In this document: piece after piece, positions 45,227 to 45,375 of the stretch | Position numbering within the stretch: the first letter of the stretch is position 1 | How the letters are laid out: each line of letters opens with the position of its first letter | DNA from: a virus | DNA length: 64,000 bases | Direction: 5' to 3' (one strand) | Virus record (IMG/VR): IMGVR_UViG_3300017605_000342 | Span: 96,875-160,874 of that record | Program-made: the position numbers and the translations under genes | Notes under the pieces: generated by a model | Told to the model about the DNA's origin: nothing | Seen by the model: only the letters and a program-made list of their open reading frames with translations | Database searches by the model: none

Positions 45227-45375
45227 CTGACATAGTGCTTGCACGTCATACTTCTTATAGGAACCGCTGCCCTTACGGGTGCTGTGGGTTCGACCCCCAC
45301 CTTGGTGCTTCGGCATCTTGTGGCGAAACTGGCAAACGCGGCGGTAAAAGGCAGACTGCTAATAATTCTTGTCAG
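45227..45375 (+). ncRNA. Y1: YrlA-like RNA with permuted type II (Leu-like) tRNA body
   Basis: Outer stem CTGACA/TGTCAG, AGTG at 45234, ATACTTC at 45248-45254 and TTCTTG at 45366 match the Ro-stem motifs of this array. Inside, in permuted order: CCGCTGC (pairs 7 bp with GCGGCGG, the anticodon-stem position), a variable-arm hairpin CCC-TTAC-GGG, T-arm GTGGG-TTCGACC-CCCAC, then GGTGC-TTCG-GCATC closing the acceptor with a C(UUCG)G tetraloop, and a Leu-type D-arm GCG-AAACTGGCAAA-CGC. This is a tRNA-Leu-like fold with ends at the anticodon. Confidence 0.8.

Follow-up and report, generated by a model that had tools for sequence, protein, structure and literature searches.

The window, a stretch of 64,000 nucleotides taken from a 160.9-kb virus record (IMGVR_UViG_3300017605_000342, positions 96,875 to 160,874), carries a gene for a Ro60-like protein, rsr, with Y RNA-like elements on either side (Table 1). 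The rsr product was matched by Pfam TROVE with E 5.8e-15, and its vWA_Ro60 match was weak (E 6.5e-5, below cut-off). This protein shares ~50% identity with the rsr proteins found in phages of Xanthomonas, Brevundimonas and Caulobacter, and Acidobacteria contigs hold rsr proteins at 55-58% identity; for the DNA polymerase of the record, the nearest relatives are those of phages of the acidobacterium Tunturiibacter, at 30-33% identity. There are also ~25 tRNA-model matches in the record, three of which are tRNA-Leu genes. No RtcB gene was found in the record, which may be a fragment, and promoter and terminator scans of the Y RNA array gave results no better than shuffles.

Table 1. Features of the Y RNA array around rsr and parts of Y1 (positions in the window)
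Feature	Position	Strand	Basis
Permuted tRNA-like body, 31-nt acceptor loop starting GCCA	44510..44589	+	R1 34.0 bits, body only; descriptor
Y1, type II (Leu-like) Y RNA, outer stem CTGACA to TGTCAG	45227..45375	+	R1 match 45223-45380
Y1 outer (basal) stem, 5' strand CTGACA	45227..45232	+	Pairs with 45370-45375; aligned to R1 basal stem
Y1 putative Rsr-binding region, 5' strand: GCAC-GTC stem, then ATACTTC box	45241..45254	+	TACTTC conservation
Y1 anticodon stem, 3' strand ACCGC (tRNA 39-43)	45263..45267	+	Pairs with 45341-45345
Y1 long variable region, hairpin GCCC-TTAC-GGGT, last base U48	45268..45283	+	Strict descriptor; both-side changes across five RNAs
Y1 T arm GTGGG-TTCGACC-CCCAC	45284..45300	+	Descriptor scan; R1 alignment
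Y1 acceptor CTTGGTG / CATCTTG, sealed by C(TTCG)G	45301..45320	+	Sequence
Y1 U8 G9, D arm GCG-AAACTGGCAAA-CGC (45323-45339), G26; Leu type	45321..45340	+	Nearest tRNAs are Leu
Y1 anticodon stem, 5' strand GCGGT (tRNA 27-31)	45341..45345	+	Pairs with 45263-45267
Y1 putative Rsr-binding region, 3' strand GACTGC...ATTCTTGTCAG	45354..45375	+	Aligned to conserved CTTGTTCC side of R1
Short Y RNA without tRNA-like body	45386..45461	+	R1 31.1 bits
Short Y RNA without tRNA-like body	45485..45580	+	R1 33.3 bits
Probable short Y RNA	45583..45672	+	R1 18.5 bits, E 0.0019
rsr: phage Ro60-like protein, TROVE and vWA domain, 452 aa	45703..47061	+	Pfam
Y RNA, type I body, 3' of rsr	47065..47203	+	R1 54.6 bits
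Y RNA, type I body, 3' of rsr	47236..47380	+	R1 85.1 bits
Short Y RNA, 3' of tRNA-Met gene	47890..47965	+	R1 41.4 bits
Y RNA, type I body	47966..48116	+	R1 76.7 bits

The array was delimited with a covariance model, R1, built from 36 aligned Y RNAs that had been picked by a permuted-tRNA descriptor, almost all of them in other phage contigs and adjoining rsr; none comes from the window. In this alignment most helix pairs are kept in 33-36 of the 36 sequences and take as many as six pair types; the outermost basal pairs hold least well (23/36), and the motif TACTTC is invariant (36/36). Within the window, R1 recovered nine elements around rsr, from 44510 to 48116 and all on the plus strand, and its next matches outside the array had E values of 0.07 or worse. 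The body at 44510-44589 has a Gly-like D arm and lacks recognisable Rsr-binding boxes, and is possibly a Y RNA that is forming or decaying. Short elements are common among R1 matches in general: ~146 of 341 are shorter than 110 nt (a ~75-nt class), most of them look like Y RNAs with a putative Rsr-binding stem and no tRNA-like body, and at some loci several stand in a row.

The initial annotation had placed a Y RNA at 45227-45375, here called Y1, and R1 bore this out with a match at 45223-45380 (24.9 bits, E 2.9e-5, filters off) in which the only large insertion, of 11 nt, falls exactly at the variable loop. Y1 adjoins rsr, has the basal stem shared by these RNAs, and carries D, T and acceptor arms in permuted order with the acceptor closed. 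R1 also matches the YrlA that lies between rsr and rtcB on a Rhizobium plasmid, the variable region of which, AGGTC, is of type I; since the model thus matches a canonical bacterial YrlA, the phage RNAs and bacterial YrlA form one family. No Rfam family matches Y1 at gathering score, and in permissive mode Rfam returned no YrlA match at Y1, with SNORD67 and PhotoRC-I both below their cut-offs. Judged from its sequence, Y1 is a phage YrlA-type Y RNA.

YrlA is exemplified by that of Salmonella, for which structure 6CU1 is reportedly available and which is said to have been described by Chen and colleagues in 2014 and by Wang and colleagues in 2018. As far as those accounts go, YrlA and Y1 have in common the linkage to rsr/Ro60, a basal Rsr-binding stem with conserved boxes (putative in Y1), and D, T and acceptor arms that are permuted and sealed at the acceptor end. 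However, ordinary YrlA has a variable region of 4-6 nt (type I), whereas that of Y1 spans 16 nt, contains a hairpin, and is accompanied by a Leu-type D arm. To our knowledge, and according to reviews, known YrlA bodies are of type I, and our own survey agrees with this part of the initial annotation, as a variable region of 4-6 nt was found in most of the bodies surveyed and also in one bacterial YrlA.

All the elements named in the initial annotation were found in Y1 in the permuted order it had given, which is that of a tRNA opened in the anticodon loop and closed at the acceptor end. The anticodon stem is present, although with 5 bp, as in a tRNA, rather than the 7 bp claimed, because a helix of 7-8 bp would absorb position 26 as well as the lowest part of the variable arm. 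The separate variable-arm hairpin (45269-45280) was recovered by the strict descriptor described below, is backed by compensatory changes, and coincides with the R1 insertion. The T arm was likewise found both by descriptor and in the R1 alignment, and its loop has an unusual C at position 60. The D arm, proposed to be in the style of tRNA-Leu, does have a 3-bp stem of the Leu type, and an A15-U48-type pair is present. At the acceptor, the C(UUCG)G cap is in place, but the stem beneath it is imperfect, with five of seven positions paired in addition to the closing C-G pair and two adjacent U-U mismatches inside. The cap itself is nothing special, UUCG occurring in the acceptor loop of 16 of 98 distinct Y RNA bodies. 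In the putative Rsr-binding region the TACTTC box is intact and the 3' box is degenerate. What would make Y1 a functional tRNA-Leu is absent: it lacks CCA as well as a seven-base anticodon loop, and its acceptor is sealed by UUCG.

When Y1 was folded as a single sequence, the minimum-energy structure did not have the tRNA-like shape (z -0.30); that shape has an energy of -40.0 compared with a minimum of -43.8, i.e., a cost of ~4 kcal/mol. The case for the predicted tRNA-like shape is a comparative one, and folding energy is not its basis.

This comparison was made with a strict type II descriptor comprising a T arm, an acceptor of at least 5 pairs, a 3-bp D stem with GG in the loop, an anticodon stem and a variable hairpin. 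Composed after examples had been seen, the descriptor was applied to 2.9 Mb, a total that counts both strands and includes overlapping copies of some contigs. It matched five distinct sequences, each of which is a Y RNA lying immediately 5' of rsr: Y1; the copy shared by CcrPW and CcrColossus; that of Bambus; that shared by Kabachok, Papperlapapp and Domovoi; and that of RHph_TM39. The same descriptor gave zero matches in 6 Mb of Markov-1 sequence. A looser version was dropped, its noise being on a par with a reverse-strand control. Besides the window phage, the carriers are thus phages of Caulobacter (CcrPW/CcrColossus), Brevundimonas (Bambus and the Kabachok group) and Rhizobium (RHph), and in each of these four phage groups the type II RNA is the last or near-last 5' of rsr. 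R1 scores of the four other than Y1 range from 35 to 77 bits, and TACTTC is found in four of the five, RHph having ATACATC.

Across the five RNAs, 119 of 124 helix cells are paired and 15 positions have changed on both sides, among them the anticodon pair 27:43 (G-C, C-G and U-A), two variable-stem pairs and the 15:48 contact, which is A-U in four RNAs and G-C in one. Since the sequences were aligned manually on the proposed structure, and Bambus is related to Kabachok, this count leans towards the structure and the independent events number fewer than 15. When 2.9 million viral contigs were scanned with a narrow motif, the only type II members recovered were those of Caulobacter phages, three other matches being attributable to chance, and a search of viral contigs with patterns specific to the RHph rsr protein found no relatives. 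The type II design is rare, with five distinct cases compared with about a hundred distinct bodies, and Y1 appears to be a rare new variant within the YrlA Y RNAs, with a body predicted to be a circularly permuted type II tRNA. Permuted tRNA-like Y RNAs are known in bacteria and phages; what is apparently new is a copy with the extra arm of a leucine tRNA.

We then asked which tRNA the body resembles. Y1 is like tRNA-Leu in its long variable arm, its 3-bp D stem after UG, its 5-bp anticodon stem, its T arm and its A15-U48 pair, and unlike it in being permuted, in carrying a putative Rsr-binding stem where the anticodon loop would be, and in lacking a free CCA end. When the five type II bodies were put back into tRNA order, with an anticodon loop (CTTAAGA in the case of Y1) and CCA supplied by hand, ARAGORN read all five as type II tRNAs, the amino-acid label reflecting only the supplied loop; when the Y1 body was mononucleotide-shuffled 400 times, a weak null, and given the same loop and CCA, ARAGORN called none of the products. 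Y1 was also compared with 202 distinct phage and bacterial tRNAs drawn from the loci, and its top seven neighbors are without exception Leu. Leu tRNAs are nearer than long Ser tRNAs (p 0.002, Mann-Whitney) and than all others (p 2e-8), these p values being only indicative because the tRNAs compared are mutually related. For Bambus, Kabachok and RHph, Leu also comes out on top, with a weaker margin over Ser or none, and for the CcrPW copy Leu has no advantage over Ser (p 0.51). The resemblance of the Y1 body to a Leu tRNA is therefore supported by sequence comparison, and of the two isotypes that the initial annotation had left side by side, Leu is the better fit.

The initial annotation had further offered either descent from such a tRNA or selection to resemble one, and although these are not fully separable, NCCA letters kept in sister RNAs favor descent. 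Acceptor loops start with NCCA in 11 of the 98 distinct bodies recovered by R1, three of them of type II, compared with ~1.5 expected by chance, and this excess suggests that the acceptor loop is a remnant of the tRNA 3' end. For Y1 itself, a Leu tRNA gene is the most probable ancestor. If Y1 and its sisters do copy tRNA-Leu, the effector of Y RNAs would be drawn from different tRNAs and not be one fixed fold, and there would be a concrete route from tRNA genes to Y RNAs.

Other accounts of Y1 have to be set against these observations. It might have been a Leu-derived body once and now be decaying, its own function gone and the work done by the other eight elements. Its R1 score is the lowest among the full-length Y RNAs of the window (24.9 versus 54-85 bits), and the acceptor mismatches and the unusual T loop would fit such a history. 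So would two relatives with a Leu-type D arm and no variable arm, the second Y RNA of CcrPW (L064:2284-2416), which also has a UUCG cap, and a further Y RNA at locus L030; they look like cases of arm loss and imply that the variable arm may be lost secondarily. In Y1, however, none of the five helices has been lost, the 15:48 pair persists, the variable arm is perfectly paired, and the TACTTC box has been kept, so that we consider decay rather unlikely. We give still less credence to convergence, in which a type I Y RNA would have gained a chance hairpin with neither Leu ancestry nor Leu mimicry. The identity of Y1 to any single tRNA-Leu is modest, and the CcrPW copy stands equally near to Ser, as this account would expect, but the D arm (UG-GCG...CGC), A15-U48 and the variable arm co-occur in four phage groups, and Y1 is clearly nearer to Leu than to any other isotype.

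Permuted tRNA genes exist in some algae and archaea, and the order of parts in Y1 matches that of such a gene; related phage RNAs, moreover, keep an anticodon arm. Y1 could on these grounds be taken for a gene whose transcript is cleaved and ligated to give a functional tRNA-Leu. Yet the seven-base anticodon loop and CCA are missing, the space is filled by the putative Rsr-binding stem, and the phage already has three ordinary tRNA-Leu genes, all of which makes this account highly improbable.

The reading that we prefer, at a probability of roughly 0.7, is that Y1 is a phage YrlA-type Y RNA with a permuted tRNA-Leu effector, serving as a tether for Rsr and as a decoy of tRNA-Leu. Its basal stem would bind the neighboring phage Rsr (Ro60), the Rsr-binding stem would take the place of the anticodon loop in the effector module, and the UUCG tetraloop would join the two tRNA ends. 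Since it has no anticodon loop and its end is sealed by UUCG, such an RNA could be neither charged nor used in decoding. During infection, Y1 might tie Rsr to a partner that recognizes the elbow or the long arm of tRNA-Leu, with PNPase or a tRNA-handling enzyme as candidates, and might also act, as a by-product or as its purpose, as an uncleavable and unchargeable decoy for enzymes that bind tRNA-Leu. A tether between Rsr and a tRNA-Leu-binding protein would be the simplest reading. The Y RNA of Deinococcus, to which Y1 is likened by function only, tethers Rsr to its partner in the Rsr-PNPase degradation machine. If Y1 and its sisters do copy type II tRNA-Leu, the candidate partners of the tRNA-like domain would narrow to proteins that tolerate or favor a long variable arm.

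Published work on related RNAs provides a background for these proposals. Rsr attaches to the basal stem of YrlA and PNPase to its tRNA-like domain, and YrlA is a modification substrate of two tRNA enzymes, DusA and TruB (PMC8394870); it has also been suggested that YrlA competitively inhibits an anticodon nuclease (PMC7790460). In the transcriptome of a Listeria phage, putative Y RNAs were reported near an Rsr-like gene (PMC12282133), which makes the expression of Y RNAs in phages plausible. A broader and tentative idea, which we regard as doubtful, is that phages with rsr keep sets of Rsr-bound permuted isoacceptor copies as decoys against host anticodon nucleases or host tRNA enzymes. Some copies in such a set would have a complete anticodon arm and one kind would copy the type II tRNA-Leu, and these uncleavable or unchargeable copies might protect the tRNA pool or capture host tRNA enzymes during infection.

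Several further observations were made at other rsr loci. In many phage Y RNAs a full anticodon arm has been kept, placed after the TACTTC box and before the variable loop (e.g., L025:5366-5507, L011:3622-3768, L081:2782-2923 and L076:2792-2932). When such arm-bearing RNAs were re-ordered and given CCA, ARAGORN read 39 of 39 as complete tRNAs of many isotypes, these 39 having been pre-selected for a hairpin with U33 and with A or G as base 37; in unselected seven-base loops, U33 together with a purine at 37 was found in 22 of 24. In the Bacteroides phage crAss001, two tRNA-like RNAs in normal, unpermuted order lie 3' of rsr (L069:3850-4760), and a Y RNA-like putative Rsr-binding region (GGAGGGA-TA-GCTCAGTTGGTAGAGC ... 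TTACTTC ... ATTGGTTCAAGTCCAAT-TCCCTCC) seems to replace the anticodon.

Some tRNA annotations near rsr also deserve a second look. A tRNA-Thr of Xanthomonas phage 10KY502B (L062:2331-2398) and a tRNA-Ser of Brevundimonas phage Kikimora (L063:2266-2340), each just 5' of rsr, overlap R1 matches, and both are therefore probably Y RNAs. Brevundimonas phages additionally carry an 87-nt tRNA-Cys(GCA) with a long variable arm, which is unusual for Cys (L063:5643-5729, L066:6114-6200 and L190:6116-6202).
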